The notes beneath the pieces are model-generated. The model was not told the origin of the DNA. It saw only the letters and a program-made list of their open reading frames with translations, and searched no databases. The translations under genes were made by a program, and so were the position numbers. Positions 14,511 to 36,992 of a DNA stretch of 64,000 nucleotides are shown here, one piece after another; the first letter of the stretch is position 1, and each line of letters opens with the position of its first letter. Source of the DNA: Pseudomonadota bacterium (GTDB lineage: Bacteria > Pseudomonadota > Alphaproteobacteria > Rhodospirillales > Magnetospirillaceae); assembly GCA_021781575.1 (NCBI GenBank), contig JAJXWP010000006.1, positions 62,001 to 126,000 of the forward strand. Reading direction: 5' to 3'.

Positions 14511-15701
14511 TTGGACAACGCGGAAAACACACGACAGGTCCTGTCGTACGTTTCGGTGGCCTATGCGGTGATGTTCTATGCCGCGGCCGCCGTTCTTCTG
14601 GTGGGATTGGCCCTCAAGATCACGCAATACCTGCGCGAGCCTCCGCGGCTGCGGCCGCCCGGCGCTTCCGGCGACGACAGCCGGTTCGGCAGCACCATTC
14701 GGGTGGCGACCGACGTGTTTCTCTTCCGCGGCACCTTCTTCAGTGACCGCGTGCAATGGATCTTCAGCGCCTTCTTCCACATTGGGCTGCTGCTGGTGAT
14801 CCTGCGCCATTTGCGCTATGCCCTCGAGCCCGCCTGGGTCGGCCCGTTGTGGAACGTGGTCATCGTCGCCCAGCCGCTCGGGCTATACGGCGGGCTGGTG
14901 ATGATGGCCGGCACAGCCGGCTTCTGGGCACGCCGCATATTCGACCCCGACATCCGCCGGGCGACCACCCTTTCCGATCATTTCATGCTGGGCCTGTTCC
15001 TGCTGATCCCGGCGGTGGGCTACATCAACAACATCCTCCATACCGACGTGATCGCGGTCAAAGAGTTCTTCCTCGGCCTGATCCGCGTCCAATGGACCAA
15101 CCTGCCGACCGACTCCATGCTGCTGACCCATCTGTGGCTGGTCGCCGTGATGATGGTGGCGTTGCCGTTCAGCCAGTTGCTGCATCTGGCCGGGGTGTTC
15201 GACAAAACGCAGCAGATGGACAACGGACGCAACACCAAGGCCCGTGCCGCCGTCGCCGGGGTGTTCGGCGTGTTGCTGCTCATTCCCGCCGCCTTCGCCG
15301 CCGGCCAGGTGGCGGAAGAGGGCTGGACCAGGCCGCAGCCGAATTTCGCCAAGCTGGCGCGCGCCCACAAGAACGACGACCCGACCGTGATGATCCGCAA
15401 CCACCCGAACTTCCTGATGAACGTACGGTCGATCACGGTCTATCGAGGCGTCCGGAAGGATATCAACAAGATCGAGAAATGCGTCGATTGCCACGCCGTC
15501 AAGGGTGCGGACGGGCAGCCGGTCGGCTTCGACAATCCGAAGCATTTCTGCGTCGGTTGCCACTACCGGGCGGCGGTTTCCATCGACTGCTTCGAATGCC
15601 ACAACTCCAAGCCGACCGGAAAGGACAAGGCGGCGTTGGATATGACGACCAAATTCGCGGCCCTTGCGCCTCGTTCCAACCAGAGGAGTTCCGAGCGATG
15701 A
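14511..15701 (+). CDS. DsrM-DsrJ-like fusion: NarI-type cytochrome b with C-terminal triheme cytochrome c
   Basis: A 396-residue inner-membrane protein. Residues 10-230 hold about five hydrophobic helices with several histidines, resembling NarI/DsrM diheme cytochrome b. A further helix at about 244-265 leads into a soluble part with three heme motifs: CVDCH (324-328), CVGCH (347-351) and CFECH (360-364). Three c-hemes behind one helix is the layout of DsrJ, so the chain reads as DsrM fused to DsrJ. The start is TTG after an AGGAAAGG site. The next gene overlaps by 4 bp. Quinol oxidation or reduction coupled to periplasmic electron transfer is inferred; the cytoplasmic partner DsrK is missing from the operon. 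Confidence 0.8.
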   Translation: MDNAENTRQVLSYVSVAYAVMFYAAAAVLLVGLALKITQYLREPPRLRPPGASGDDSRFGSTIRVATDVFLFRGTFFSDRVQWIFSAFFHIGLLLVILRHLRYALEPAWVGPLWNVVIVAQPLGLYGGLVMMAGTAGFWARRIFDPDIRRATTLSDHFMLGLFLLIPAVGYINNILHTDVIAVKEFFLGLIRVQWTNLPTDSMLLTHLWLVAVMMVALPFSQLLHLAGVFDKTQQMDNGRNTKARAAVAGVFGVLLLIPAAFAAGQVAEEGWTRPQPNFAKLARAHKNDDPTVMIRNHPNFLMNVRSITVYRGVRKDINKIEKCVDCHAVKGADGQPVGFDNPKHFCVGCHYRAAVSIDCFECHNSKPTGKDKAALDMTTKFAALAPRSNQRSSER

Positions 15702-16423
15702 GCGAGAGCTTCGAAGTCTCCCGCCGGGCGCTTCTCGGCGGGGCGGTTGCTTTCACCGCCGCCACCCTGGCCCCAGGGGTGGTCCTCTACGCCCGCTCGT
15801 CCGACGAGCCGGCGACCGGAGCGGTGCGCTGGGGATTGCTGATCGACGTTAACCAATGCAAGGGCGACTGCAATGCCTGCGTCGAGGCCTGCAATACCGA
15901 GTTCGGACTGGTCAGCCACGGGCGCCCCGATACCGATCCGCAATGGGTTCGCAAAGTCACGGTGACGGACCCCGAGACAGGAGTGAGCCAGTCCTTCCCG
16001 GTCATGTGCCAGCATTGCGCCCACCCGCCTTGCGCCGACGTCTGCCCGACCGGGGCGTCGTTTCGCCGAGCCGACGGGATCGTCCTGATCAACCGCCATA
16101 TCTGCGTCGGCTGTCGCTATTGCGAAATGGCCTGCCCATACAAGGCGCGCAATTTCGTCCATGAGAACGTCACCGATCAGAAACCTTACGCGCCGCGTGG
16201 CAAGGGAACCTCCGAGGCCTGCACCATGTGCGTGCACCGCATCGATGAGGGGCGTATTCCGGCCTGCGTTGAAGCCTGCGCGGCCAGCGGCCGCGCCGCC
16301 ATGCTGTTCGGCGACCTTAACGACCCCAACAGCGACATCGCCAAGCGGGTCGCCGCCGTCAACAGCGCACAGATCCGGGCCGATTTGCGGACCGATCCCG
16401 GCGTACGCTATCAGGGGCTTTAG
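15698..16423 (+). CDS. DsrO-like periplasmic ferredoxin with Tat signal
   Basis: A 241-residue iron-sulfur protein. The N-terminus has a twin-arginine signal (SRRALLGG, Arg at 9 and 10) followed by a hydrophobic stretch. Sixteen cysteines fall in four ferredoxin-type groups (54-65, 104-116, 136-146, 175-194), enough for four [4Fe-4S] clusters, as in DsrO, HybA and related electron-transfer subunits. It overlaps the upstream gene by ATGA and is followed 3 bp later by an NrfD-type membrane subunit, the order seen in DsrMKJOP and in Geobacter Cbc4-type operons. It likely relays electrons on the periplasmic face between the triheme domain and the NrfD-like quinone site. Confidence 0.88.
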   Translation: MSESFEVSRRALLGGAVAFTAATLAPGVVLYARSSDEPATGAVRWGLLIDVNQCKGDCNACVEACNTEFGLVSHGRPDTDPQWVRKVTVTDPETGVSQSFPVMCQHCAHPPCADVCPTGASFRRADGIVLINRHICVGCRYCEMACPYKARNFVHENVTDQKPYAPRGKGTSEACTMCVHRIDEGRIPACVEACAASGRAAMLFGDLNDPNSDIAKRVAAVNSAQIRADLRTDPGVRYQGL

Positions 16424-16426
16424 ATC

Positions 16427-17647
16427 ATGAGCACTCCCTCCGTCACCTATCACACCATCGACGGCCGCAACGCCGGCACCTGGGCGGTCCTCATCACCTT
16501 CATCCTGATGACCGCCTTGGGCGGCCTAGCCGCCATGTATACGGAACACAACGGTCATTGGGTCACCGGCATGACCAACCATGTCGTGTGGGGCCTGCCG
16601 ATCGTCATCGCCATCTTTCTTATCGTTTCATCCACCGGCTGCCTCAACGTCGCCTCCATCGGCTCGGTGTTCGGGAAGCAACCCTACAAGCCCTTCGGCC
16701 GGCTGGCCGGTGTCACCGCCCTGGCGGTGCAGGCGGGCGGCCTGGCGATCCTGGTGCTTGACCTCGGTCGTTCTGACCGGATCATCACCTTCGTCACCAA
16801 CCTCAACCCGACGTCCATTTTTTCACTGAACGTCTTTCTCTACAGCGGCTTCTTCATTTTCGTCGCATTCTATCTGTGGACGATGATGGACGGGCAGAGG
16901 ATGGACCATCTCTATCGTCCGGCGGCGCTGCTGGCCTTTACCTGGCGGTTGATCCTGACCACCGGTTCGGGCTCGATCTTCGGCTTCATGGTATCGCGCA
17001 GCGCCTATCACTCCACCCTGGTGGCGCCTCTGTTCATCGCGCTGTCCATGTCCTTCGGTCTGGCCATGTACGTGCTGGTTATGCTGTGGTTGAACGCCAG
17101 TACCGGTCGTAAGTATCCTTCGCCCGAGTTGCTGCGCCGGCTACGGATTCTGTTGGGCATCCTGGTCGGTGTGTCACTCTATTTCGTGGTGATCCACCAT
17201 CTTACCAACTACTACACGGCTGAACGCCGCGACGTGGAGAAATTTCTGCTGTTCGGTGACAATGTCTACGTACCGTTGCTGTGGATCGGCTTCGGCCTGA
17301 TCGGCAGCGTCATTCCCATGCTGATGGTGCTGCTGCCGGCACGAACCGTGGGTGGCGCCAAGCTTTCCCTTGGCGTGGCTTCGGCGCTGGTGGTGTTCGG
17401 CGGCCAATGCTTCATGTACGAGTTCGTCGTCGGCGGCCAGGCCTTTCCGGTGGAATTGTTCCCCGGCAAGATCGTCTCCTCGACCTTCGGCGACGGCGTG
17501 ATCGCCCATTACACGCCCAGCATTCCCGAGTGGCTGCTGGTCATCGGCGGCTACGGGGTGGTCGGTCTGATCATAACCGTGGTCATCTGGGCCTTGCCCA
17601 TGCTGCCGAGCAGCTTCGCCCAGGAGACATCCGACACGGCTCACTGA
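16427..17647 (+). CDS. DsrP/NrfD-like polytopic quinone-interacting subunit
   Basis: A 406-residue membrane protein with about nine or ten hydrophobic helices and no heme motif, typical of the NrfD / PsrC / DsrP superfamily, which binds quinone at the periplasmic side together with a ferredoxin subunit. It starts 3 bp after the DsrO-like gene. The operon appears to end here, because a strong hairpin with a short T-run follows at 17693. Proton or charge movement across the membrane by this subunit type is discussed for the family but cannot be judged from this sequence. Confidence 0.88.
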   Translation: MSTPSVTYHTIDGRNAGTWAVLITFILMTALGGLAAMYTEHNGHWVTGMTNHVVWGLPIVIAIFLIVSSTGCLNVASIGSVFGKQPYKPFGRLAGVTALAVQAGGLAILVLDLGRSDRIITFVTNLNPTSIFSLNVFLYSGFFIFVAFYLWTMMDGQRMDHLYRPAALLAFTWRLILTTGSGSIFGFMVSRSAYHSTLVAPLFIALSMSFGLAMYVLVMLWLNASTGRKYPSPELLRRLRILLGILVGVSLYFVVIHHLTNYYTAERRDVEKFLLFGDNVYVPLLWIGFGLIGSVIPMLMVLLPARTVGGAKLSLGVASALVVFGGQCFMYEFVVGGQAFPVELFPGKIVSSTFGDGVIAHYTPSIPEWLLVIGGYGVVGLIITVVIWALPMLPSSFAQETSDTAH

Positions 17648-17692
17648 ACAACGCAACTTCGACAGGGTTTCCGCGGTTCAGTGTGGGGGGGC

Positions 17693-17717
17693 GGGGAGCC
17701 TTCGGGCTCCCCGTTTT
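17693..17717. terminator. Rho-independent terminator between convergent cytochrome operons
   Basis: GGGGAGCC-TTCG-GGCTCCCC is a perfect 8-bp stem with a stable tetraloop, followed on the + strand by GTTTT. It lies 45 bp after the nrfD-like stop and 11 bp before the stop of the opposing cytochrome b gene, so it may serve both. Confidence 0.85.
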
Positions 17718-17728
17718 ACGTTCGGCAA

Positions 17729-18424
17729 TCAGGATTTCGAGACATCGGTGGCGGTGGCCCCGGCCGCCAGGCCGCTTTCCTGTGCGAGCGGTTCGCAAGC
17801 GTCCGCCTCTTCCTCGTGCCAGCCGGTGATCATCGTCGAGATTTTCGATGTCAGCGTGTCGCCGGTGGTGCCCAGATAGACATGGACCAGGACAAACAGG
17901 AAGATCAGGAAGGCCGTGACGAAATGGACGAAGGCTATCGGCAGCAGGCCATCGACGCCGAACCAGCGGTCGGGGGCCACGGTCGGGTAAAGATACGTCA
18001 GGCCGGTCACGATCATCAGCGGCATCAGGACATACATGAGACCCCAATAGATCAACTGCTGCAGAGGGTTGAAGTTGTCGGCGACGGTGGTGGGGAAGGG
18101 GTGGGGGGCGCCGTGGAACATGTCCCACATGTAATAGCGGAACTGAACCCAGCACCGCTGCATGTATCCGTGGGGCCTTGGGATGTACTGCCACCAATTT
18201 CCCGAAACGATGTTGCCGATGAAAAAATACGCATAATCGATGCAAAGCCCGATGCCGGCGATATTATGCATGTCGCGGGCCAGGCTGAACCTGATGATTC
18301 CGGCGCCGGGACGGGCATAGTGGAGGCTGAGGCCCGAGGCGATCAGGCAGAGAATCAGCAATACGTTGATCCAATGCCAGACGCGGATCCACAAGGCGAG
18401 AATGAAGATGCGCCGAGACATCAT
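17729..18424 (-). CDS. Diheme cytochrome b subunit, HydC/FdnI type (CbcB-like)
   Basis: A 231-residue membrane protein with about four helices and histidines in helix positions (RVWHWINV, RDMHNIAG, FVHFVTAF, VLVHVYLG), the pattern of cytochrome b561-type gamma subunits of hydrogenase, formate dehydrogenase and thiosulfate reductase. It overlaps by ATGA with the preceding seven-heme cytochrome gene. That pair matches the layout of CbcBA of Geobacter, an inner-membrane menaquinol oxidase used in metal respiration at low potential. The match is by architecture and heme count, so the role is inferred. Confidence 0.82.
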   Translation of the reverse strand: MMSRRIFILALWIRVWHWINVLLILCLIASGLSLHYARPGAGIIRFSLARDMHNIAGIGLCIDYAYFFIGNIVSGNWWQYIPRPHGYMQRCWVQFRYYMWDMFHGAPHPFPTTVADNFNPLQQLIYWGLMYVLMPLMIVTGLTYLYPTVAPDRWFGVDGLLPIAFVHFVTAFLIFLFVLVHVYLGTTGDTLTSKISTMITGWHEEEADACEPLAQESGLAAGATATDVSKS

Positions 18425-19389
18425 TTCCTCCTTTTTTGGAGCCGGCTGGCGACGATCCGCAGCAGCCCGTGAACGACGATCCCGGCCAGCAACAGGCCGG
18501 TGATCACCCAGGTGGCCCGATCCAGCCAGATGTTCCGTGTAGCGCCGACCACATAGGCTTCGCTCAACACCGCCCCGTTAAGAAAGCCCGCTTGTTCGAT
18601 CTGCCCTTGTTCGGCGAAATAACGGTAAAGGCGGGTACGCAGGCTGGAGGTGGCGCTGTGGCAAACCACGCAATCGCGTTCGGCCTTGTCCTTGCCCAGG
18701 ATCACATGGGACGTGCCGCCGCGTTCGGACGGCGGCGTGTGGCAGTCGATACAGCGCACGCTTTTCCAGTGCAGTTCCGGGTTCGGCTGCCACTTGTGCA
18801 CCTCGACCAGATCCGGCCGCGGCCGGGTGGTGAATTGGCCATACCGCTGGTCGCTGTCGTGGCAGTCGCGGCACATTCCATTGTCCTGGGCGATCAATCG
18901 CTTGGCGGATCCAAGCTGCTTCGCCCTTTGTAGGGTGTGCGGGTTGTGACAGGAGACGCAGCTGAAATTATGCGGGTGATTTATATAATGTAGTGTTTGT
19001 TTGAACTCATTGAATTTTCGTCGACCAGCCGACTTGTGGCATTCCGGGCACATTTTTATCTGATATCGAGAATTTGCTACATGTGGATATTGGACATAGC
19101 TGTCCCCATGGCAATCCTTGCAGGCCTCTTCGCCATGCACTGACTTCTCGAATCGCTCGGCGCTGATCAGAAGGTTGGCCAGGCCTTCGAGATGCATATC
19201 GGCGCGCGGTGGATTATTGAGCCCCGCTTCACTGTGGCAGGCCAGGCATTTGGCGTTGGCCTCCTTCGTTTGCTGGTCCGCGCTGCTGGGCGGCGAACTC
19301 GAGGCCTCCTCGGCGCCTCGTCCAGGCTCGCTCCACATGAGAATGGCGATGAATATTGCCGCGGCGGCGGCAGTTTTGGTGATTTTCAT
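18421..19389 (-). CDS. Seven-heme cytochrome c with C-terminal membrane anchor (CbcA-like)
   Basis: A 322-residue periplasmic cytochrome starting at MKITKTAAAA with a signal peptide. Seven CXXCH motifs begin at residues 48, 90, 114, 144, 173, 213 and 240, and a hydrophobic helix at about 294-312 anchors the C-terminus. Seven hemes plus a C-terminal anchor, co-translated with a diheme cytochrome b, is the design of Geobacter CbcA. The pair would pass electrons between the quinone pool and periplasmic carriers such as the c4 cytochrome encoded divergently at 19861. An octaheme-reductase fragment is less likely because no catalytic signature is seen. Confidence 0.85.
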   Translation of the reverse strand: MKITKTAAAAAIFIAILMWSEPGRGAEEASSSPPSSADQQTKEANAKCLACHSEAGLNNPPRADMHLEGLANLLISAERFEKSVHGEEACKDCHGDSYVQYPHVANSRYQIKMCPECHKSAGRRKFNEFKQTLHYINHPHNFSCVSCHNPHTLQRAKQLGSAKRLIAQDNGMCRDCHDSDQRYGQFTTRPRPDLVEVHKWQPNPELHWKSVRCIDCHTPPSERGGTSHVILGKDKAERDCVVCHSATSSLRTRLYRYFAEQGQIEQAGFLNGAVLSEAYVVGATRNIWLDRATWVITGLLLAGIVVHGLLRIVASRLQKRRK

Positions 19390-19860: not shown

Positions 19861-20463
19861 ATGAATAAGCTCATCGGAGTTTCCTTGTTGGTCGTCGGTC
19901 TGTCAGTGGCACCGAGCGCGATGGCGGCTGATCTGACCGCCGCCTGCGCCGGCTGCCACGGGGTCGACGGCGTCAGCACCGACGCGAAGGTACCGACGAT
20001 CTCCGGCATGTCGGCCGAATACCTCAAGGACGTGCTGCGGCAGTACAAGAAGAAGACGCGCCCGGCCGAGGAGGTGACCATCGCCGCCGGCGACAAGAAG
20101 GGCACCAAGAGTGACATGTACAAGGCGGTCGCCGATCTGAGCGATGCCGATATCGCCACCGTGGCGAACGCGTTCGCCGCCAAGAAATTCGTCCGCGCCA
20201 AACAGGCCGCCGACGCCGCCCTGGCCGCCAAGGGCAAGGCGATCCACGACAAGCTGTGCGAGAAGTGCCATACCGAAGGCGGCAGCGTCGCCGATGATGA
20301 CGCCGGCATTCTCGCCGGCCAGTGGATTCCCTACCTGAAAGCTCAGTTGGCCGATTACAAGTCGGGAAAGCGACCAGTGCCGAGCAAGATGCAGCCCAAG
20401 CTTGACGAGGTTCAGCCGGGCGATCTTGATGCCTTGGCCAATTACTACGGCAGCGAAAAATAA
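19861..20463 (+). CDS. Diheme cytochrome c4-like protein
   Basis: A 200-residue periplasmic protein with a signal peptide ending near AMAAD. It has two cytochrome c domains, with CAGCH at 29-33 and CEKCH at 133-137; methionines near 86 and 177 are candidate axial ligands. This two-domain layout is cytochrome c4, a soluble diheme electron shuttle. Its place between the CbcAB-like pair and the first mtrAB pair makes it a good candidate for the periplasmic link between inner-membrane cytochromes and the outer-membrane conduit. The start ATG follows a GGAGAGACC site. Confidence 0.88.
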   Translation: MNKLIGVSLLVVGLSVAPSAMAADLTAACAGCHGVDGVSTDAKVPTISGMSAEYLKDVLRQYKKKTRPAEEVTIAAGDKKGTKSDMYKAVADLSDADIATVANAFAAKKFVRAKQAADAALAAKGKAIHDKLCEKCHTEGGSVADDDAGILAGQWIPYLKAQLADYKSGKRPVPSKMQPKLDEVQPGDLDALANYYGSEK

Positions 20464-21321: not shown

Positions 21322-22290
21322 ATGTTGATAAAGAACCTGGTGACCGGCGTCTTCACCGGCATCCTATTCATGCTCGGCGCCAGCGCCTGGGCTGCCGAGA
21401 GTCCCGCGGCGGCCCCCGCTTACGCGGCGAAGGGCGAACTGACCTGCATGAAGTGCCACGATTCGGCACCCGTGACCGAAATCCTCAACACGCCGCATGC
21501 GGTGAAGGGCGACAGCCGTACGCCGTTCTCCAACCATGGCTGCGAAACCTGCCATGGCGCCAGTCCCGAGCACATCAAGAGCGCCAAGCACGTGACCGGC
21601 AACGAAAAGCCGGTGCCGCCGGCGATCTCGTTCAGTGGGCCGAATGCCGCCCCGTCCAAGGTGCGTGCCGGCGTTTGCCTGGGATGCCACGAAAACACCG
21701 CGCGCATCAACTGGATCGGCAGCAAGCACGACCGCAACGACGTGGCCTGCAACAATTGCCATACCATCCATGCGAAGAAGGATCCGCTGTTCGTCAAGGA
21801 AGCGCAGCCGGAGAAGTGCTTCACCTGCCATCCGCAGCAGCGCGCCGAGAGCTTCCAGTATTCGCATCACCCCATCCGTGAAGGCAAGGTGGTCTGCTCT
21901 GATTGCCACGCCATTCATGGCTCGCCCGGACCGCATCTGGTCAAGGAATTCACCGTCAACGAGACCTGCTACAACTGCCATGCCGAAAAGCGCGGGCCGC
22001 TGCTGTGGGAACATCAGCCGGTGCGCGAGAACTGCGACAACTGCCACACCCCGCATGGTTCGCCTCAAGCTCGTCTGCTGACCGAACGTCTGCCCTACCT
22101 CTGCTCCGGCTGCCACAGCGGCGCGGCCAACCAGAGCGGCGGCTTCTTCGGCGGTCTGCATTCGCTGCCCGGCCAGAACCTGAACAACGCGGCGCTGCTC
22201 AACAACGAGTTGCAGTACCGCAGCTGCCTGAACTGCCACACGCAGGTGCACGGGTCCAACAGCCCGGCTGGCTTTGCCTTCACCCGCTGA
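21322..22290 (+). CDS. mtrA: Decaheme cytochrome c, MtrA/DmsE/PioA family (copy 1)
   Basis: A 322-residue exported cytochrome with a signal peptide ending near SAWAAE. Ten CXXCH motifs begin at residues 42, 74, 119, 143, 166, 192, 216, 238, 261 and 302, the number and spacing of MtrA/DmsE. MtrA is the heme wire that sits inside the MtrB barrel and carries electrons across the outer membrane. Its length matches MtrA rather than the N-terminally extended PioA. The ATG at 21322 was chosen over an in-frame TTG five codons earlier. It is followed 27 bp later by its barrel partner. It is closely similar along its length to the copy at 33198, which points to module duplication. Confidence 0.93.
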   Translation: MLIKNLVTGVFTGILFMLGASAWAAESPAAAPAYAAKGELTCMKCHDSAPVTEILNTPHAVKGDSRTPFSNHGCETCHGASPEHIKSAKHVTGNEKPVPPAISFSGPNAAPSKVRAGVCLGCHENTARINWIGSKHDRNDVACNNCHTIHAKKDPLFVKEAQPEKCFTCHPQQRAESFQYSHHPIREGKVVCSDCHAIHGSPGPHLVKEFTVNETCYNCHAEKRGPLLWEHQPVRENCDNCHTPHGSPQARLLTERLPYLCSGCHSGAANQSGGFFGGLHSLPGQNLNNAALLNNELQYRSCLNCHTQVHGSNSPAGFAFTR

Positions 22291-22317: not shown

Positions 22318-24579
22318 ATGAAAACAGGTTACACTCTTCGGGCCATCGCGCTAGCCGGCGTCAGCCTCCTGCCCTTGGCCGCATATGCCGCAGACGACGC
22401 GGCGAACAAGCCCCTTGTCGAGGGTGACATCAGCGTCGGCGGCTATTGGCAAAGTTCGAGCAATCCGATCTATGGTCGCTACAACGGCTTCGTCGACAAA
22501 GGGTTCGGCATGCTGGGCAGCTTCGACTTGCAAAGTCGCGATGCCTGGAATTCCGGGGGAACCCAGTATTTCGAAGCGACCGGCCGCAATCTTGACTTCA
22601 GCGACAGCTACAATGCCCCTGAAGCCGAGGTGAATGTCAAAGCCGGCCAGCAGGGCATCTGGGGCGCCCATGTCGATTACGACGCCATCACCTATACGGG
22701 CAACAACATCTATACGCCCTATGCGGCAAGCGGCGCCCTGGTGAACGGCCTTCTTCCGTACGGCGGGGCCGGCCTGACCACCAGGGGCTCGGTTTTCACC
22801 ACCACCTATGTCAACAACCCAAGCGCGCTCGCCTCCGTCCTCGCCCTGACCGGGACCGAGACCCGCCGCGACATCGTCGATGGCGGCTTCGACCTGCGAT
22901 CGGGCAGTTGGCTCTACAATGTGGAATTGCGCCACGAGCACAAATCCGGGACCATGGAGCAGACAGTCGATACCAGCTTCGCGGGGACGCCTTTCGCCCA
23001 GCCGATCGATTACGACTTCGACCGGTACCGGGCTTCGGCCGCCTATTCCACGCGGCAACTGCAGGCGCAATTCGCCTACACCTATTCACGGTTCACCGAC
23101 AACAACACGGCGTTCAACGCGACCTATTTCACCTCGCCGCCGACGCCCGCCAATGCCCTTTATCAAGCACAGGCGGCCTATTCCCTGCCGCCCAGCAACG
23201 ACGCCCATTATTTCACCGGTTCTCTGGGCTACAACATCACGCCCAATACCCGCATCAGCGGCAACTTCCGGTATGGTCTGGAATTGCAGGACGCTACCAT
23301 GGCGCCGGCAACCTACTCCACTGCGGCGCAGTTTTCGGCGTTGTCAAACAACGGCAACTATTCCCTGCTGGGGACCAACCCGCAGTCGTTGGACGGTCAG
23401 GCTCAAGTCTACGGGGTGACGGCGCAGTTGAGCTCCAGCCCCATCGAAGACTTGGACATCGAGGCCAATTACCGGCTCGATGGCCGGGATGTCGACACGC
23501 CGGACTATGGCGTCGCCGGCTTCCACGGCACCGACGGGGCGATCGTTCCCAACATCTCCTACAGCTTCCCGCAAAGCTGGCTGAAGCAGAACGCCTCGTT
23601 GGAAGCCGGGTATCGCATCCTCAGGGAAAGCAATACCCGACTGCTCGTCGGCTATGCCTTTGACGACGTCGACCGCAGCATCGCCCAGGTCGGCCACAGC
23701 AGCACCAGCACGCTCTCGGCCAAGATCATGACCGCGCCGACCCAGGAACTGACCGGGCAGGCCGGCTATGAGCATGCCAACCGCAGTGGCGTCGTCAACT
23801 GCAACCTGCCGTGGCAGTACCTGGCCAACAGCGGTGCCGCGGCCTGCGAACCGTCGCTCGCCTTCTACCAGGCGCCGATGACCTCGGATTCGGCAAGGTT
23901 GCGGGCGGACTACACGCCGAACGAGGATACTTCGATCGGGATCTTCGGGAAGTTCACCCAGGATCACTATCATAACCCCGGCTACGACCCGCTCACCGGC
24001 GATGGCTACACCGGCACCAGCATGGATCGCAATATCACCGCCGGGCCTGACGCGTCCTATCGTCTGTCAAAGGACGCAGCGGTACACGCGTTCTATACCT
24101 TCGAGCGGATCTTCTTCGCCAACAACGGCGCCGGTGCCACCCCGGCCGCCCATCCGCCCGGCCTTGGGCACTTCACCTCGGCAACCACCGACGACGTCCA
24201 CAGCGTCGGCCTGTCGGGGGATTGGAAGGTTACGGACCGGTTGAAATTGGGTGCCAACTACACCTTCTACTACGGCGATGTCAGCTATTACCTGTACAAC
24301 GGCGTGATCGCGCCGGTCACCACGGCCAGCTATCAGAACGTGGCCGACCTGCCCAACGTCGATTCCTCGATGCACAGCATCAAGCTCAACGCCCAGTACA
24401 AGCTCACCCCCACGATGACCCTGTGGGGCGGATATTCCTATGACATGTTCAAGGACTCCGACTGGGCCTACAGCTGGCCTGCCACGCCTGTCGGCGGTTA
24501 TTCAACGATGACTACCGGCGTTCCCAGCCCGAGCTATCACGTCAATACCGTGTTCAGCGGGGTGACGTTGAAGTTCTAG
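22318..24579 (+). CDS. mtrB: MtrB/PioB-family outer-membrane beta-barrel (copy 1)
   Basis: A 753-residue outer-membrane protein with signal peptide MKTGYTLRAIALAGVSLLPL and cleavage near AYAAD. The rest is a run of alternating amphipathic strands rich in Tyr, Asn and Thr, ending in the aromatic GVTLKF, the usual terminal strand for BAM-dependent insertion. Marks shared with copy 2 are GRYNGF near the N-terminus, YSLPPSN and FYTF/FYTY strands. The N-terminal CXXC known from Shewanella MtrB is absent; instead two cysteines lie at 495 and 510. It would sheath the decaheme cytochrome encoded just upstream. Confidence 0.9.
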   Translation: MKTGYTLRAIALAGVSLLPLAAYAADDAANKPLVEGDISVGGYWQSSSNPIYGRYNGFVDKGFGMLGSFDLQSRDAWNSGGTQYFEATGRNLDFSDSYNAPEAEVNVKAGQQGIWGAHVDYDAITYTGNNIYTPYAASGALVNGLLPYGGAGLTTRGSVFTTTYVNNPSALASVLALTGTETRRDIVDGGFDLRSGSWLYNVELRHEHKSGTMEQTVDTSFAGTPFAQPIDYDFDRYRASAAYSTRQLQAQFAYTYSRFTDNNTAFNATYFTSPPTPANALYQAQAAYSLPPSNDAHYFTGSLGYNITPNTRISGNFRYGLELQDATMAPATYSTAAQFSALSNNGNYSLLGTNPQSLDGQAQVYGVTAQLSSSPIEDLDIEANYRLDGRDVDTPDYGVAGFHGTDGAIVPNISYSFPQSWLKQNASLEAGYRILRESNTRLLVGYAFDDVDRSIAQVGHSSTSTLSAKIMTAPTQELTGQAGYEHANRSGVVNCNLPWQYLANSGAAACEPSLAFYQAPMTSDSARLRADYTPNEDTSIGIFGKFTQDHYHNPGYDPLTGDGYTGTSMDRNITAGPDASYRLSKDAAVHAFYTFERIFFANNGAGATPAAHPPGLGHFTSATTDDVHSVGLSGDWKVTDRLKLGANYTFYYGDVSYYLYNGVIAPVTTASYQNVADLPNVDSSMHSIKLNAQYKLTPTMTLWGGYSYDMFKDSDWAYSWPATPVGGYSTMTTGVPSPSYHVNTVFSGVTLKF

Positions 24580-26753: not shown

Positions 26754-26760
26754 CGGTCGG

Positions 26761-28906: not shown

Positions 28907-30977
28907 CGCGACCGGCTCCTTGATCGGGGAAACAGGACGTCGGTGCGGTCCTGGCAGCCTCGCCTTGCGGTAGCGCAGGGGTCATGTCGGGTAAGCTGAG
29001 CCGGCCGATCGGCCGATCGATCGACCCCGGCTCGCGACCTTCGCGGCCGATCAGCCATACCTCGTAGGCGTTGTCGGCAAGGGTGAAGACGGGCGATCGC
29101 CACGGTGCCAGGGTGCCGTGCCAGGGGGATCCCACCGTGACGTTGCCAAACGACACCAGCCGGCTGCCGCTGCGGCCGACGAAGCAAAGCCGCGGGGCGA
29201 CGATGGTGCGGTAGTAGAGTCCGCTATAGCCGCGCAGCAGGCGGCCGTGCAGGACCGCGGTGAAGCTCTGCCCGTCCCGCCTGACCTCGATCCCCAGCGG
29301 GAAGAGATGACCTTGTTGCGGGACGACGAAAATTGCGGCTTGAGGTGCCTTGACGGCGGCAGAGCCGCTTCCGGCAGCCAGGTAGGTCGTCTCGAAGACC
29401 GTTGGAACATATGGGTTGGGGAAGGTTTTCAGGCAGTTTCCATCGCGTGACGCATAGGACAGATAAAGGAAGTGCGGGCTTTCGACGGTGGCGGTGTCGA
29501 AGACCGGGGCGAGCTGCGCGAGGGCCGGGGTCGCCGCCAGTTCGCTGCGAAGGTTGCCGTCGGCTCCACGTTTATCGACCACCAGGACGCAGTCATGGCG
29601 CCCGGGGGGGGTGGCGGCGGCCGGCGTGGCGCGATAGATGAACGCCATGTGGTTGCCGACGCCGCTCTGGATCAACCGCCAGCGGTTGTTGGCGTCGCGC
29701 TGGAACAGCGCCGTGCGCGCTTCGAAGGCCTGGTAACTGGAAAAAAAGGCCGATTTCAGCGTGCGGGCGATTTCCTCCTGGGCGACGGCCGAGTCGGTGA
29801 AGAAGCCGGTCTGGAGAAAGCCGGCGGCCCCCAGGGCGGCGGGTCGGAGGGCGATCAGGCCGCACAAGGCCGCCGCCGCCGCGCGGCCGCCGTTCCCGCC
29901 AGCCAGCAGGCGCTGGATGGCCGCCTCGGCAGATAGGCCGACCATGACGGAAACGGCTGGGATGGCCGCCGCCATGTGGCGGAAATTGACCTCGGACACC
30001 AGCGCGACGGCGGCATAGACCAGGGTAATGATGGCGAACAGGCCGAGTGGCCGCGGCTGTCCTTGCTCACTCCGGCGGACGATCAGTCGGACCAGGAAGC
30101 CGCCGGCCAGGGCCGCGGCCAGGAAATCCGCAGCGGCCAAAGCCGTTGCCACCCCGGCGTAGGCGAAGCCGCCGCGCTCGGCGAAGACCCGGGCGCTGCC
30201 GCCGAACAGGTCATAGACGAACCGCGCCTTCTGCCAAAGAGCGCCGCTCCAATAGATATAGGCGGCAGCGGCCTCGCCCGGCGCCGCCGTCGCCTCGGTG
30301 AAAAACCGCCCGCCGCCGAACAGGATGGCCGGCAAATAGGCGGCACCACTGCCGGCAACAAGCGCCATGACATGCTGGCGGCGCAGCCTCGGGCGGTAGA
30401 CTCCGATGGCGATGACCAGGCCGATGGCCAGTTCGAAAATCTGCATGTGGATCTGCATGCCAAGGCCCAGGGCCAAGGCCGCCGCCGCCAGATGCATCGC
30501 CCGGCCGCGGCTGACGAAAAGGTAGCCCCACAGGGTAGCGGCGGTGGCGAAGACGACAATATAGCCGGGGTTCCACACCGTCAGCGATTGGGCCAGGGTC
30601 CCCGACCCGGCGAAGGCGGCGGTAACCAGGGCTCCCGCCAGGGGTGAGACCTCCTTGGCAAAACATCGCCACAACAGGACGGCGGAAATGCCGAAGAGGC
30701 CGATGACGCCCAGATTGGCGGCAAGAATGTCAGCCTTGATGGCTAGCAGCGCCGCCAGCAGCAGGTAGAAGGCGCCGCCCGGAGTGCGCGCGCCGCTGTT
30801 GGTTTCAGGGCCGAGAAACGGCCAATGCTGCGGAACCGCCAGGGCCCGCCACAGGTCGCGGTCGCCCCAGACGGTCAGTTCGACATTGCCGGCATGGTAA
30901 AGATCGGCGCAAAACAGGAAGGCGAGAGCGGCAGATAGAACGATCAGAAACAGACTATCGTGCCGAACTGCTGTCAT
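28899..30977 (-). CDS. Polytopic membrane glycosyltransferase (GT39/ArnT-like)
   Basis: A 692-residue integral membrane protein. About ten to twelve hydrophobic helices occupy roughly residues 1-400, and an early acidic loop (WGDRDLWRALAVPQHWPFLGPETN) fits the periplasmic catalytic loop of PMT/ArnT-type enzymes that use polyprenyl-phosphate sugars. A soluble C-terminal part of about 280 residues follows. It is the first gene of the operon that ends at 24682. The ATG at 30977 is used; a GTG five codons upstream is an alternative, and neither has a strong ribosome-binding site. Family assignment is from topology and is moderate. Confidence 0.65.
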   Translation of the reverse strand: MTAVRHDSLFLIVLSAALAFLFCADLYHAGNVELTVWGDRDLWRALAVPQHWPFLGPETNSGARTPGGAFYLLLAALLAIKADILAANLGVIGLFGISAVLLWRCFAKEVSPLAGALVTAAFAGSGTLAQSLTVWNPGYIVVFATAATLWGYLFVSRGRAMHLAAAALALGLGMQIHMQIFELAIGLVIAIGVYRPRLRRQHVMALVAGSGAAYLPAILFGGGRFFTEATAAPGEAAAAYIYWSGALWQKARFVYDLFGGSARVFAERGGFAYAGVATALAAADFLAAALAGGFLVRLIVRRSEQGQPRPLGLFAIITLVYAAVALVSEVNFRHMAAAIPAVSVMVGLSAEAAIQRLLAGGNGGRAAAAALCGLIALRPAALGAAGFLQTGFFTDSAVAQEEIARTLKSAFFSSYQAFEARTALFQRDANNRWRLIQSGVGNHMAFIYRATPAAATPPGRHDCVLVVDKRGADGNLRSELAATPALAQLAPVFDTATVESPHFLYLSYASRDGNCLKTFPNPYVPTVFETTYLAAGSGSAAVKAPQAAIFVVPQQGHLFPLGIEVRRDGQSFTAVLHGRLLRGYSGLYYRTIVAPRLCFVGRSGSRLVSFGNVTVGSPWHGTLAPWRSPVFTLADNAYEVWLIGREGREPGSIDRPIGRLSLPDMTPALPQGEAARTAPTSCFPDQGAGRDG

Positions 30978-31027
30978 GACCGTGCCGACCACCGAAGACT
31001 ACGGGCAGTATGCCCGGTACTGCGGGG

Positions 31028-31051: not shown

Positions 31052-31071
31052 TCTCCGGCCCTTGTATCGAT

Positions 31072-32022: not shown

Positions 32023-32051
32023 GGAAGTCATCTCCAAGATCCTGGAAATCG

Positions 32052-32660
32052 TCAGCCGCCGAGGTCAAAGGATTCGGGTGCGGCCGGCTTGAGAAGATTT
32101 TGCAGCGGCTTGTGGGTGATGCCCTTATGGCAGTCGATGCAGGTCATCCCCTTCTGCCGGGCATAGGCATGCTGCACCTGGGCGCGCTCCGGCTGATCCG
32201 GGGCGGACATCGCCTCGAAGCTATGGCAGTTACGGCATTCGCGGGAATCGGTCGCCTTCATCCGGGCCCAGACGTCCTGAGCCAGTTCCAGGCGGTCCTT
32301 TTCGAACTGCGCCGCCACGTCGGGGGCATGGGCCATATGCCCGAACAGGTGTTCGAACAGGTCTTTGGTCGCCATCACCTTGGCCAGCATGGTGAACTGC
32401 CACTTCTTGTGCGGGACATGGCAGTCCGGGCATTCGGCGCGCACGCCAAAGGCGTTCTGATAATGCTTGCTCTTTACGTATTCCTGGTAGGGAACCTGCA
32501 TTTCGTGGCAGGAGAAGGCGCAGAATTCCAGGTGGTTGGTATAGTCGACGGCGGTCGCATAGGTGCCGGTCAGGGCCAATCCGAACATGAAAAAGACGCC
32601 TGCGACGATGACGTATTTTCGGTATTTGGGTGAGAAAAGAAGCTTCAAACTTTTGAACAT
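32052..32660 (-). CDS. NapC/NirT-family tetraheme quinol dehydrogenase
   Basis: A 202-residue protein with one N-terminal membrane helix (about 16-38) and a periplasmic tetraheme domain. Heme sites are CAFSCH (47-52), CPDCH (77-81), CRNCH (142-146) and CIDCH (174-178). The context (CHEM after heme 1, CPDCHVPHKKW, ECRNCHSFEAM, CIDCHKGITHKP) is clearly NapC/NirT/CymA. The first site has three residues between the cysteines, where NapC normally has CISCH with two. Such proteins take electrons from quinol and deliver them to periplasmic or outer-membrane cytochromes. It is divergent from the second mtrAB pair, which supports a CymA-like job there. Confidence 0.9.
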   Translation of the reverse strand: MFKSLKLLFSPKYRKYVIVAGVFFMFGLALTGTYATAVDYTNHLEFCAFSCHEMQVPYQEYVKSKHYQNAFGVRAECPDCHVPHKKWQFTMLAKVMATKDLFEHLFGHMAHAPDVAAQFEKDRLELAQDVWARMKATDSRECRNCHSFEAMSAPDQPERAQVQHAYARQKGMTCIDCHKGITHKPLQNLLKPAAPESFDLGG

Positions 32661-33197: not shown

Positions 33198-34151
33198 ATG
33201 CATTTGAGAACGTTGATGATCGGGTTGTTGTCCGGCGTCGCGCTGAGCTTGTGCGCCGTTGGCGCCCGGGCGGCGGAGACGGCCGCGGCGGCGCCTCAGT
33301 ACGCCCCGATGGGGGAGCAGACCTGCCTGAAATGCCACGACCGTGCGCCGATCGACGCCACGGCGATCTTCAAGACGCCGCATGGCGTCAAGGGCGACAG
33401 CCGGACCCCCATGGGGCAGCACGGCTGCGAAAGCTGCCATGGCCCCAGCTCGGCTCACTACGAGAGCACTCCGGCCCCCGGCCAGAAGCGCGTCTCGCCG
33501 GCCGTCGTGTTCACCGGCCCGAACGCCTCTCCGGTGGCGGCCCGCAACAAGATGTGCATCTCCTGCCACGAGAACGGCCTGCGCATGAACTGGGTCGGCA
33601 GTCAGCATGAGATGAACGACATCGCCTGCAACAACTGCCACACCATCCACGTCGCCAAGGATCCGGTGCTGGTCAAGTCGACTCAGCCGGAGAAATGCTA
33701 CACCTGCCATGCCGAGCAGCGTGCGCTGGCTCTCCAGTTCTCCCACCATCCGATCGACGAAGGCAAGGTGGTGTGCTCGGACTGCCACAACCCCCACGGG
33801 TCGCCAGGTCCGAAACTGCTGAAGGAAGTGCGTGTCACCGACACCTGCTACAACTGCCATGCCGACAAGCGCGGCCCGATGCTGTGGGAACATCAGCCAG
33901 TTCGCGAGGATTGCACCAACTGCCACAACCCCCATGGTTCGGTGAATGCCTGGTTGCTCAAAGAGAAGGTGCCGTTCCTGTGTCTGGATTGCCATGCGGC
34001 GACCAACGACATGGGCGGCGTCGGCGTCTCCGTCAAATCGGTGCAGCCGCATAGCAGCAGCCTGTACCTGTACGGTGACCGCAGCTGCCTGAACTGCCAC
34101 TCGCAGATTCATGGCTCGAACAGCCCCAGCGGCTCGACCTTCTTCCGTTGA
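33198..34151 (+). CDS. mtrA: Decaheme cytochrome c, MtrA/DmsE/PioA family (copy 2)
   Basis: A 317-residue exported cytochrome with a signal peptide ending near GARAAE. Ten CXXCH motifs begin at residues 43, 77, 120, 144, 167, 193, 217, 239, 262 and 297, almost the same spacing as copy 1. Long blocks are nearly identical in the two, such as HGVKGDSRTP/HAVKGDSRTP, ACNNCHTIH, EGKVVCSDCH and LWEHQPVRE, with most differences near the N-terminus and between hemes 9 and 10. ATG 33198 lies behind a GGGGGAACTGAT leader and was chosen over a longer ORF. The barrel gene follows after 16 bp. The module probably arose by duplication of mtrAB. Confidence 0.93.
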   Translation: MHLRTLMIGLLSGVALSLCAVGARAAETAAAAPQYAPMGEQTCLKCHDRAPIDATAIFKTPHGVKGDSRTPMGQHGCESCHGPSSAHYESTPAPGQKRVSPAVVFTGPNASPVAARNKMCISCHENGLRMNWVGSQHEMNDIACNNCHTIHVAKDPVLVKSTQPEKCYTCHAEQRALALQFSHHPIDEGKVVCSDCHNPHGSPGPKLLKEVRVTDTCYNCHADKRGPMLWEHQPVREDCTNCHNPHGSVNAWLLKEKVPFLCLDCHAATNDMGGVGVSVKSVQPHSSSLYLYGDRSCLNCHSQIHGSNSPSGSTFFR

Positions 34152-34167
34152 GTGGAGGCATAGAATC

Positions 34168-36540
34168 ATGAGAACTCACTACACATTGAAAGCCGCTGCG
34201 CTTGCCGGTGTGTGCATGCTGCCGCTCATCGCTGTGGCCAACGCTCAGGATGCCGACGGCTTCGACGTCTCCACGGCGGCGCCGAAGGCGGTCAGCAACA
34301 ACCTGCAGGCACCCGACAACGAAGTCACCCTTGGCGTCGGTGGAGTCACCACCAAGAACGCCGTGTTCGGCCGCTACAACGGCCTGACCAACTCCGGCGT
34401 CGGCGGTTGGGGCGACTTCAATCTGAACGCCCGCGATGCCTGGGATAGTGGCAAGACCCACTATTTCAGCTTCACCGGGGACAATCTTTACTTCGGGAAT
34501 GCCGCCAACAACCCTAGCATCGGCGGCGTCGGCGCCATCGCGCCGGAAGCGTCGCTGAACATGAAGGTGGGCGATCAGGGCAAATGGGGGGTGAACGCCT
34601 TCTATAACGCCATGACCTACACCTGGAGCACCAACTTCACCACCATTCTCGACCAGGCCGGCAACCTGAACCCCGGCCTGCAGGCGGCGTTTATCCGCAA
34701 CGGAGCGTATCTCACCAATGCGACGAGCCTGGGATCCTTCTATAATCCACCCAATGCCCGTGGCATGATCAGCACCACGGCGGCGAACACCGGCCCGGCT
34801 CTCGGCTCGGCCAACGAGTACATCGATACGGTCGGCACCCGCCGCGATCTGTTCGGAGTGAGCGGCAACTATCGGCTCGGCGATTGGCTGTTCACCTCCA
34901 CGGTGTCGGACGAACACAAGGAAGGTTCGCTGGAGAACGCGATGACCACCTCCGGCAGCAATGCCGGCTTCATCCCGTTCGCCATGCCGATCGACTACGA
35001 CACCGAGTCCTATAAGGTCGCGGGCGCCTACACCACGCCGAGGCTGCAGGCGCAAGTCGGCTACACCTACTCGAACTTCATCGACCACAATACCGGTGGT
35101 TATCAGTTCGAGGGCTGGAACTTCGCCGTCGCCAACACCGGCGGCGTCTACAACAGCTTCCAGGAGTCGGGCGTCTATAGCCTGCCGCCCAGCAACCAGG
35201 CCCATACCTTTGCTGGCCAGGTCGGCTACAATCTGACCCCGACCACCCGCTTCAACGCCACCGCCAGCTATCAGCTGCAGTTGCAGAATGATCCGTTCGC
35301 GGCGGCCACCCAGAACGGGTTCGTCCTCGGCAGCTCGACCCTGTCGAGCCAGCTGGCGTCCAATCCGAGCAACCTCTCCGGCGTGGTCCAGACCTTCTTC
35401 GGCAATGCGACGGTGAACTCGCATCCGCTGCCGAAGTTGAACCTGAAGGCCAGCTATTCGATCGACATGCGGACTCCCGAAATGAGCCCGGTGTGGATCT
35501 ATGGCGATGCGACCGACTCCAACGCCCTCAGGTTGCGCGAAGCGGTGCAGGAACAGTGGACCAAACAGGACATGGTGCTGGAAGCCGGCTATCATGTGCT
35601 CGACTCCACCCGGGTGACCTTGGGCTACGCCTATCGCGACGCCGATCGCGAGAACGCCATCACCCATCACACCGGCGACAACGAAGGATCGATCAGGGTC
35701 AACAGCACCTTAACCCCGAACCTGATCGGTATCCTGGGCTATGTCCACGCCGAGCGGACCGCTTCGGCGCCCGACTTCAGCCTGTGGAACCTGCAGATCA
35801 ACTCGGACTGCGGAAGCAGCCTGACCGCCGGCAACAACCTCGGCTGTCAGCAGGTTCCGTTCTACGAGGCGGCCCGTACCGAAGATGCCGTCACGGCCAT
35901 GCTGAACGGCACCATCCGCCCCGACATGTCGGCCAGCCTGTACGGCAAGTTCACCAACAACCAGTACCACAACGACGATGCCCTCTATCATGCGATCTTC
36001 AATTCGCCGGTGGGCATTGATCATGACTACAGCGTGCAGGCGGGGCCCAACCTGTCCTACCGGTATGCTCAGGGTTCGGAAGCGCATATCTTCTATACCT
36101 ACCTGCGCAACTACCGCGACATGCGGGCTCTCGCCAACACCGCTGGCGAATACAACGAGGCCTCGACCTACGACATCCACACCGCCGGCATCGGCGGCAC
36201 CTGGAAGGTGGCCGAGAAGACCAAGGTGGGCGCCGATTACATCTATTCCTACGGGAATCAGGCGTTCAACCAGTCGGGTATCTGGACGATGGGCGAAGCC
36301 GGCCAGAATTACGGCGGCGACCCTCAGCTGAATACCCAGTCGAGCAACAATCAGTTCAAGGTCCATGCGACCTATGATCTGACGACTGCTACCCAGCTTT
36401 ATCTGGCCTATGAGTTCGACAGCCTCGATATGGCCGACTGGGCTTTGACCGGTGCTTCGGTGGGGCAGGTACTGACGGGTGATCTGCCCGCTCATTACAA
36501 TGTCAGCACCGTCATGGCAGCGGTGAAAATGAAGTGGTGA
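34168..36540 (+). CDS. mtrB: MtrB/PioB-family outer-membrane beta-barrel (copy 2)
   Basis: A 790-residue outer-membrane barrel with signal peptide MRTHYTLKAAALAGVCMLPL, nearly the same leader as copy 1. Amphipathic strands fill the rest and the chain ends in VKMKW, an aromatic terminal residue. Two cysteines at 548 and 560 occupy the place of those in copy 1 and are again followed by an FYxA segment; no N-terminal CXXC is present. A GGAGG site precedes the start. The gene ends the second mtr module and is followed by a strong bidirectional terminator. Confidence 0.9.
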   Translation: MRTHYTLKAAALAGVCMLPLIAVANAQDADGFDVSTAAPKAVSNNLQAPDNEVTLGVGGVTTKNAVFGRYNGLTNSGVGGWGDFNLNARDAWDSGKTHYFSFTGDNLYFGNAANNPSIGGVGAIAPEASLNMKVGDQGKWGVNAFYNAMTYTWSTNFTTILDQAGNLNPGLQAAFIRNGAYLTNATSLGSFYNPPNARGMISTTAANTGPALGSANEYIDTVGTRRDLFGVSGNYRLGDWLFTSTVSDEHKEGSLENAMTTSGSNAGFIPFAMPIDYDTESYKVAGAYTTPRLQAQVGYTYSNFIDHNTGGYQFEGWNFAVANTGGVYNSFQESGVYSLPPSNQAHTFAGQVGYNLTPTTRFNATASYQLQLQNDPFAAATQNGFVLGSSTLSSQLASNPSNLSGVVQTFFGNATVNSHPLPKLNLKASYSIDMRTPEMSPVWIYGDATDSNALRLREAVQEQWTKQDMVLEAGYHVLDSTRVTLGYAYRDADRENAITHHTGDNEGSIRVNSTLTPNLIGILGYVHAERTASAPDFSLWNLQINSDCGSSLTAGNNLGCQQVPFYEAARTEDAVTAMLNGTIRPDMSASLYGKFTNNQYHNDDALYHAIFNSPVGIDHDYSVQAGPNLSYRYAQGSEAHIFYTYLRNYRDMRALANTAGEYNEASTYDIHTAGIGGTWKVAEKTKVGADYIYSYGNQAFNQSGIWTMGEAGQNYGGDPQLNTQSSNNQFKVHATYDLTTATQLYLAYEFDSLDMADWALTGASVGQVLTGDLPAHYNVSTVMAAVKMKW

Positions 36541-36568
36541 TCTGCTGATCAGGCAGAGCCAATAGAAC

Positions 36569-36604
36569 GGGGCGGCTCCTTCGGGGGCCGCCCCAATTTT
36601 TTTT
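36569..36604. terminator. Strong Rho-independent terminator after mtrB copy 2
   Basis: GGGGCGGC and GCCGCCCC form an 8-bp stem, extended inwards by TCC/GGG around TTCG, followed by AATTTTTTTT. It overlaps the end of the opposing NrfJ-like gene by 2 bases. Confidence 0.92.
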
Positions 36605-36992
36605 ACTTGGCCGGAACCGGTTCCACCGCTTCGACGAAATCGACCGATTCAAAATTCCGCTGAAGCGTCTTGCTGAAGAAATTCTTCATCGGCATGCCGT
36701 CGGGCCAGCGGATGGCTGCGCCGGGCTTGAGGTCGATGGCCGGAGCCGCCAGCCATTTGTCGTCACTGCCTTCCTTTACCCGGATGTACACATAGGGATT
36801 TGCCGAAAGGACTTCCTCCACCGTTCCGCTGTGGTTCATCTCGGCCTTCGCGGTGCCATGGCCCTGGCCCTGGCCGATTGCCGGATGCCCGGGCGGCATC
36901 TTGCCCATGGGCATCGGACCGGTGGGCATCTGCGCGACGCTGGTTGCCAAAGGGATGACGACGAATAGCGTGGCAAGAAGGGGAAGTCGCAT
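36603..36992 (-). CDS. NrfJ-like periplasmic protein
   Basis: A 129-residue exported protein with signal peptide MRLPLLATLFVVIPLATSVAQ and a Met/Gly/Pro/His-rich linker (residues 22-50). Its small domain reads GTVEEVLSANPYVYIRVKEG, then WLAAPAIDLKPGAAIRWPDGMPMKNFFSKTLQRNF. The MPM-NF-SKTL-R-F pattern matches the NrfJ-related family, small OB-like proteins found beside multiheme cytochrome genes. Function in the family is poorly known. It faces the second mtrB across a shared terminator. The methionine- and histidine-rich linker could bind metal, but that is inference. Confidence 0.7.
   Translation of the reverse strand: MRLPLLATLFVVIPLATSVAQMPTGPMPMGKMPPGHPAIGQGQGHGTAKAEMNHSGTVEEVLSANPYVYIRVKEGSDDKWLAAPAIDLKPGAAIRWPDGMPMKNFFSKTLQRNFESVDFVEAVEPVPAK

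Follow-up and report, generated by a model that had tools for sequence, protein, structure and literature searches.

Here we describe a locus of about 22 kb (positions 14,511 to 36,992) in a 64,000-nucleotide stretch of alphaproteobacterial DNA, referred to below as the window, in which two MtrAB-type outer membrane conduits are accompanied by three inner-membrane quinone-type interfaces and by a cytochrome of the EB_dh (ethylbenzene dehydrogenase) fold. Judged from gene content and homology, the locus is best explained as a modular island for extracellular electron transfer (EET), a reading to which we assign a probability of about 0.6. In module 1, a Dsr-like complex which lacks DsrK, has its M and J subunits fused and has lost a DsrJ cysteine (DsrMJ-O-P) would, together with a CbcAB-type pair, feed a PdsA-like diheme cytochrome, and the diheme would hand electrons to MtrA1. 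In module 2, electrons would pass between the quinone pool and NapC, be ferried through the periplasm by the EB_dh cytochrome and cross the outer membrane via MtrA2 inside MtrB2. The searches found no cytochrome of MtrC type, so that MtrA itself would make direct contact, through its outer end, with a mineral, chelate or shuttle, as proposed for Pio and Mto. These subunit partnerships, the carrier order, the quinone chemistry and the direction are what we infer. The narrower proposal, that a sulfur-respiration complex was recruited into EET as a quinone interface (possibly an energy-conserving one, with two quinone-facing membrane subunits) and that EB_dh represents a class of periplasmic relay, as yet without a name, which connects MtrA with NapC or CbcAB, is tentative and stands a little short of even odds.

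The window comprises positions 62001-126000 of contig C6 of a 4.48 Mb draft genome (G000; 114 contigs, completeness 99.6%, contamination 3.02%). A tmRNA of alphaproteobacterial type is present in this genome, and the host is an alphaproteobacterium related to Telmatospirillum. Families were assigned by Pfam and NCBIfam (TIGR, NF) profile scores against curated cut-offs. Gene content, conservation, co-localisation, fusions and the lack of MtrC/OmcA-family or HiPIP matches were observed directly, in samples of 55 family genomes, 5 genus genomes and 385 genomes of the class, drafts included. The near kin comprised G006 (JAJYTF01, a proteobacterium metagenome-assembled genome, MAG), G007 (CAIOJO01, uncultured Telmatospirillum), G051 (WASQ01, Telmatospirillum MAG, isolate SA7853_bin3) and G054 (JARLJB01, Telmatospirillum MAG), which were equated with these accessions through exact 1-kb stretches in common, on one contig each. 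For MtrA neighbourhoods, the best 80 of at least 580 confirmed matches to an MtrA alignment yielded 79 named loci; these were chosen by similarity to the window MtrA, lean alphaproteobacterial and in some cases share one genome, and are not independent genomes.

MtrAB conduits and the DsrMJ-O-P complex

Both decaheme/barrel pairs were confirmed as MtrAB conduits, TIGR03508 and PF11854 being over their cut-offs in each pair (Table 1). In the draft, PF11854 was found to match no genes besides the two MtrB genes; it occurred in 17 of the 55 family genomes, including all 5 genus genomes. Among PDB sequences, the sole match of MtrA1 was 6r2q_A (E=3e-66), a chain mislabelled in that database listing, and MtrB1 had no match; 6R2Q is the MtrAB of S. 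baltica (PMC10654088). Identity between the pairs is 57% for MtrA and 34% for MtrB. In a quick MtrA tree (96 rows, SH-aLRT support only), MtrA1 belonged to a 10-row set drawn from this genus and g17 (SH-aLRT 99). MtrA2 belonged to an 8-row clade (SH-aLRT 95), every row of which has EB_dh nearby. Because MtrA1 and MtrA2 fall in different supported sets, the two pairs have the look of long-separated lineages, not of a recent duplication. An MtrA 44% identical to that of the window was also seen in a record titled Klebsiella pneumoniae MAG, a title which may be wrong. Both MtrA proteins score in the family named DmsE, as would be expected if the pairs served a soluble extracellular terminal reductase in the way DmsEF serves DmsAB. 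We consider this highly improbable, as no molybdoenzyme was recognised among the scanned window genes, the rest of the genome not having been searched.

DsrMJ-O-P reads as a Dsr-derived quinone interface that would keep the quinone/haem/Fe-S relay minus the sulfur-specific parts, because it adjoins CbcAB or MtrAB, has no DsrK, lacks the DsrJ cysteine and occurs in three hosts without canonical DsrM. Like DsrMKJOP, it contains the M, J, O and P components, arranged as M-J-O-P, with DsrO over its curated cut-off; unlike it, M and J are fused, K and the cysteine of J are missing, and M, J and P score far under their cut-offs. The fusion protein reached 82.3 bits with the DsrM model (cut-off 300) and 31.9 bits with the DsrJ model (cut-off 100), and matched nitrate reductase gamma chains only among PDB sequences. 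The profile searches advised for the Mtr, Dsr and Cbc subunits by the initial annotation, a reading made from the letters of the window, identified MtrA, PF11854 and DsrO and left DsrM, DsrJ and DsrP under their cut-offs. No DsrK lies between M and J, a single M-J open reading frame (ORF) being followed directly by O, and homologues are alike in this; the fusion and its TTG/leucine-codon start are common to three homologues.

A fusion profile detected the full-length protein in five of the 55 family genomes (G000, G006, G007, G051 and G054), all of them belonging to the 17 with MtrB. The other matches listed were unfused pieces resembling DsrM or DsrJ, together with the second, split copy of G006. 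In the class sample, the fusion was found at E<=1e-20 in the window's genome only. Six DsrMJ-O-P copies were thus found in the family, two of them in G006, and all six lie beside CbcAB and/or MtrAB, five being beside CbcAB. The neighbours are CbcAB, the diheme and MtrAB1 in the window; CbcAB, EB_dh and MtrAB on G051:C13, a single contig of the MAG from the goethite-reducing enrichment; CbcAB and two MtrAB on G054:C350; and CbcAB on G007:C434, where the contig ends. On G006:C6 they are CbcAB and the diheme, with DsrMJ cut by the contig end; the missing front part is probably the piece that closes C41. The order on G006:C27 is mtrA-mtrB-DsrMJ-DsrO-NrfD and then the diheme, with DsrMJ starting about 30 bp after mtrB, the diheme about 340 bp past NrfD on the same strand, and no CbcAB within the 20 kb read.

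This constancy of neighbours bears on whether DsrMJ-O-P is a part of sulfur metabolism that has come to lie beside mtrAB by chance. DsrO does exceed the cut-off of the DsrO equivalog, and the window's genome carries a dsr operon elsewhere, with dsrA and dsrB over cut-offs on contig C51 followed by an M-K-L-J-O-P-like series (K and L being named by sequence and position). Against such a role stand the six neighbourhoods out of six, the absence of DsrK, and canonical DsrM not being found at E<=1e-20 in three of the five fusion hosts (G007, G051 and G054), drafts in which absence is not proof. In an alignment, the cysteine of canonical DsrJ was present in 5/5 distinct canonical sequences and missing from 5/5 fused ones; we take it to be the ligand of the His/Cys haem. 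The available part of PMC9562282 describes in DsrJ a haem with His/Cys ligation, for which a part in sulfur chemistry has been proposed. A sulfur role with chance adjacency is, on balance, unlikely.

The EB_dh cytochrome and the outer contact

EB_dh is most likely a periplasmic relay rather than a surface cytochrome. Both of its motifs and two more histidines (287 and 296) were invariant in 22/22 aligned rows, and its CX3CH is a candidate haem-binding site. One correction to the initial annotation is that EB_dh and NapC have, in addition to CXXCH, one CX3CH apiece. In the NapC group, CX3CH instead of CX2CH as the first haem motif was seen in 4/7 aligned rows (the window, L032, L034 and L037). 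NapC scored 180 bits with TIGR02161, under its cut-off of 310.6. The predicted fold of EB_dh matches the gamma-type subunits 2ivf_C (ethylbenzene dehydrogenase) and 7b04_C (Kuenenia nitrite oxidoreductase) with TM 0.37-0.55, the Foldseek match of the weak model to 2ivf_C having E 7.8e-09 and TM 0.39/0.55. Ethylbenzene dehydrogenase has also been named for archaeal FoxC (PMC10654088).

EB_dh was present in 24 of the 79 MtrA loci and lay directly upstream of mtrA on the same strand in 20. NapC accompanied it in 13 of the 24 loci, CbcA in 3 and neither in 8. Rows with EB_dh nearby were scattered over the MtrA tree (31/96), requiring at least 11 changes, at least 5 of them forced by starred branches. 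As background, any EB_dh match at E<=1e-20 was found in 12 of the 385 class genomes. Single-protein NapC-EB_dh fusions occur in 7 class genomes (L154-L160, L169), where no MtrB was found. A tie between EB_dh and the diheme was rejected, since none of the 79 loci holds EB_dh together with a diheme match of at least 150 bits; the window has both, about 11 kb apart.

Several observations weigh against the island as proposed. Evidence for DsrMJ-O-P is limited to two genera, the diheme scores far under the PdsA cut-off, and none of DsrMJ-O-P, CbcAB and the diheme shares an operon with mtrAB1 in the window, where the strands alternate. The EB_dh model is weak (pLDDT 66.8) and usable for fold class only, not for haem placing. 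Four of the eight EB_dh loci without NapC or CbcA (L100, L116, L122 and L137) show 5-9 kb upstream, the rest being cut short. Nine of the 11 class genomes with EB_dh, the window's own left out, have no MtrB match, and a second EB_dh in the window's genome (L166:9458-12409) lies directly downstream of a pyrroloquinoline quinone (PQQ) alcohol dehydrogenase gene. The nine genomes rule out EB_dh as a partner of MtrAB alone. Because of these MtrB-less genomes and the paralogue beside the PQQ enzyme, EB_dh looks like a general periplasmic partner of NapC, used repeatedly by MtrAB systems.

The absence of MtrC/OmcA and PioC, as stated initially, was borne out. The OmcA/MtrC model (TIGR03507) was over its cut-off in none of the 55 family genomes, gave weak matches in 13 and had no match in the window's genome at E<=0.001; PF01355 (HiPIP) matched in 0/5 genus genomes. 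Places of CXXCH were listed for the first 100 of 277 in the genome (contigs C1 to C26), and an unusual multihaem surface protein may lie on the contigs after C26. One MtrA locus, L112, combines MtrA, MtrB, EB_dh, CbcA and CbcB with a 690-residue 10-haem ORF cut by the contig end.

A candidate for the outer contact has been published. According to the available text of PMC6933298, the Telmatospirillum MAG SA7853_bin3, from a goethite-reducing enrichment, has two MtrAB and no MtrC, and MtrA/B homologues occur in other Rhodospirillales. Within the same excerpts, a two-haem "cytochrome c-552" beside MtrA is proposed as the extracellular contact, with a prediction placing it outside the cell; a 10-haem and a 9-haem MtrA are listed, the c-552 being numbered just before the 10-haem one. 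In our analysis of this genome, G051:C13 carries EB_dh, a 10-haem MtrA and MtrB in that order, and G051:C94 a 9-haem MtrA and MtrB. Because gene order and haem counts agree with the published list, c-552 is probably the EB_dh homologue, which is 52% identical to that of the window.

The question is then whether EB_dh could be the extracellular terminal cytochrome replacing MtrC. In favour of this, its gene immediately precedes mtrA, the place that mtrC takes elsewhere, and the location predicted in print, as far as the accessible portion of PMC6933298 goes, is extracellular. This placement is opposed by the ordinary Sec-type signal without a lipoprotein box, as read from the sequence, by the NapC-EB_dh fusions, which tether the domain to an inner-membrane protein, by the MtrB-less EB_dh genomes, and by L112, which holds EB_dh together with its 10-haem candidate. 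We regard a surface role as improbable and prefer the periplasmic relay.

Layout of the locus

All genes named in the initial annotation were found at about the positions given, by ORFs, haem motifs and family profiles (Table 1). This includes three inner-membrane quinone-type interfaces, DsrMJ-O-P, the CbcAB-like pair and NapC; their "different potentials" were a Geobacter analogy, of which the sequence gives no sign. Start codons within ORFs were chosen by us, and the spacings follow from them.

Table 1. Features of the locus, with window positions, strand, motifs and profile scores
Feature	Position	Strand	Motifs and scores
DsrMJ fusion, NarI/DsrM-like cytochrome b + DsrJ-like triheme	14511..15701	+	TTG start; 3 CXXCH; PF02665 44.4 bits
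DsrO 4Fe-4S subunit	15698..16423	+	NF045797 286.6 bits (cut-off 200); Tat-type start as read
NrfD/DsrP-like membrane subunit	16427..17647	+	PF03916 142.4 bits; DsrP model 48.5 bits (cut-off 350)
CbcB-like b561 membrane cytochrome	17729..18424	-	PF01292 81.6 bits; thiosulfate reductase cytochrome b model 160.1 (cut-off 204)
CbcA-like heptaheme, C-terminal hydrophobic anchor	18421..19389	-	7 CXXCH
PdsA-like diheme cytochrome c	19861..20463	+	2 CXXCH; NF049874 169.3 bits (cut-off 330); Sec-type signal as read
Pro-rich 106-residue ORF	20668-20988		signal-like start
MtrA1 decaheme	21322..22290	+	10 CXXCH; TIGR03508 286 bits (cut-off 192.2)
MtrB1 barrel	22318..24579	+	PF11854 292.5 bits (cut-off 23); TIGR03509 262.2 (cut-off 240.05)
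TPR-methyltransferase / methyltransferase / glycosyltransferase / unknown 697-residue cluster	24682..30992	-	family scans; adjoins mtrAB1
EB_dh-fold cytochrome, 316 residues	31072..32022	-	CX2CH + CX3CH; PF09459 110.6 bits (cut-off 33.3)
NapC/CymA-type quinol dehydrogenase	32052..32660	-	3 CX2CH + 1 CX3CH; PF03264 187.9 bits (cut-off 24.1)
MtrA2 decaheme	33198..34151	+	10 CXXCH; TIGR03508 312.6 bits (cut-off 192.2)
MtrB2 barrel	34168..36540	+	PF11854 255.3 bits (cut-off 23); TIGR03509 228.2, just under 240.05
Small Met-rich (initially "NrfJ-like") protein	36603..36992	-	signal-like start; beside mtrB2

The genes are spaced as if in operons. There are 4-bp overlaps between DsrMJ and DsrO and between the heptaheme and b561 genes, NrfD begins 3 bp after DsrO, and gaps of 27, 16 and 29 bp separate mtrA1-mtrB1, mtrA2-mtrB2 and napC-EB_dh, respectively, the last pair being divergent from mtrA2. 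The locus holds 36 CXXCH in all within about 22 kb. In the whole draft, the DNA form of CXXCH was counted 277 times and the reversed control pattern 156 times, the 36 of the locus making up about 30% of the excess.

A further correction to the initial annotation is that not all of the 22 kb codes for haem proteins. Between the two pairs lies the methyltransferase- and glycosyltransferase-like cluster, which may decorate the cell surface. Part or all of this cluster was also seen beside an mtrAB pair in G004, G006, G007, G050, G051, G052 and G054. The heptaheme/b561 pair likewise recurs in relatives' loci, and in G006 the whole block running from mtrAB1 as far as the regulator and EAL genes is retained, with identities of 60-92%. 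Synteny comparison, which had been advised as a check, thus found most of the layout conserved in relatives and not unique. The suggestion that it was undescribed in an alphaproteobacterium also had to be dropped, in view of these shared modules and of the published Telmatospirillum MAG with two MtrAB.

The small Met-rich protein had neither a Pfam match (E<=0.001) nor an NCBIfam match (E<=1e-10). Its relatives lie beside mtrB in G004, G006, G048 and G049, with weaker ones in L099 and L121 and still weaker ones in L102 and L110. The Pro-rich ORF between the diheme gene and mtrA1 had no convincing relative among the loci compared (best E 0.81).

Direction of electron flow and comparison with known systems

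The direction of flow is left open, with outward flow slightly ahead. Outward flow, that is Fe(III) reduction, is our first guess because of the analogy with the Telmatospirillum MAG from the goethite-reducing enrichment. Conduits working mainly inward, with electrons of Fe(II) or minerals passing through MtrAB and EB_dh or the diheme to quinone via NapC, CbcAB or DsrMJ-O-P for CO2 fixation, are possible though the less probable choice. The window's genome does hold three RuBisCO large subunits over curated cut-offs, which we take to be of forms I and II, and has dsrA and dsrB with their M-K-L-J-O-P-like series, an ACIII/Qrc-like cluster with all scores under cut-offs, and no reaction centre, the last of which also speaks against photoferrotrophy of this organism. 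In addition, MtoAB and PioAB, likewise without an extracellular cytochrome, are tied to Fe(II) oxidation in the available part of PMC6344600. Inward flow is opposed by the one relative tied to a phenotype, which came from a goethite-reducing culture (available text of PMC6933298), and by the finding in the accessible portion of PMC9600427 that in vivo the Mto-pathway protein ImoA oxidises quinol. RuBisCO, moreover, was not found in three of the five genus genomes (G004, G005 and G007; G000 and G006 have three matches each), whereas MtrB was found in all five.

With dsrAB and its dsrMKLJOP-like series, the three RuBisCO and the ACIII/Qrc-like cluster (L165, L194-L197), the organism is perhaps a facultative sulfur- or iron-oxidising autotroph. 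G004, of the same genus, carries reaction-centre genes on G004:C41 together with PF11854 matches and is a possible photoferrotroph.

The locus gives a testable parts list for alphaproteobacterial EET beyond Pio, and it hints at a possible route for electron exchange between these bacteria and iron minerals. A re-used Dsr complex and an EB_dh relay would be two defined hypotheses for MtrAB running without its known carriers. The published surface-cytochrome candidate of Telmatospirillum would shift to the periplasm, making the real outer contact a testable question.

The closest known system is that of SA7853_bin3, which has, like the window, two MtrAB, no MtrC/OmcA and EB_dh (by our mapping c-552) before one mtrA; the contig of that mtrA also carries DsrMJ-O-P and CbcAB, upstream. 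It differs in that the paper, in the part available, puts c-552 outside the cell, whereas we place EB_dh in the periplasm. The available main text of PMC6933298 contains none of the terms DsrM, DsrO, Dsr, NrfC, NrfD, b561, CbcL or ethylbenzene. A paper on quinol oxidases in EET (PMC6295460) does not mention NrfD, DsrM, CbcA or Alphaproteobacteria. Among the titles and abstracts listed by searches of the open-licence literature, none described an EB_dh protein or DsrMJ-O-P together with MtrAB, which is weak evidence of absence.

MtrCAB of Shewanella, Aeromonas and Vibrio uses interchangeable feeders and carriers (CymA, NetBCD, PdsA), as described in the accessible part of PMC8805035. The present locus shares this modularity, with MtrAB, exchangeable inner-membrane quinol dehydrogenases and a diheme periplasmic carrier, but MtrC was not found, the feeders are DsrMJ-O-P, CbcAB and NapC, and EB_dh is the likely relay. 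Group 6 in the same excerpt has an unspecified periplasmic monoheme ("mono"), which may or may not be EB_dh. In Geobacter, CbcBA oxidises quinol for extracellular acceptors (available part of PMC12307469); our CbcAB-like pair resembles it in architecture, having a multihaem c-type and a b-type membrane subunit, and differs in that its partner would be MtrAB and not a Geobacter-type conduit. In Sideroxydans, interactions link ImoA (NapC family), PmcA and MtoA, as reported in the available text of PMC13390432. There too an MtrAB homologue has a partner of the NapC family, with a carrier in the periplasm between the two, but PmcA is an 11-kDa monoheme whereas a 316-residue EB_dh-fold protein occupies that slot here. 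MtrAB without MtrC in Telmatospirillum (PMC6933298) and modular MtrCAB feeders (PMC8805035) are thus already known, as far as the available parts of these papers go. What the comparison suggests as new is DsrMJ-O-P as a putative re-used Dsr quinone interface and EB_dh as a likely periplasmic relay.

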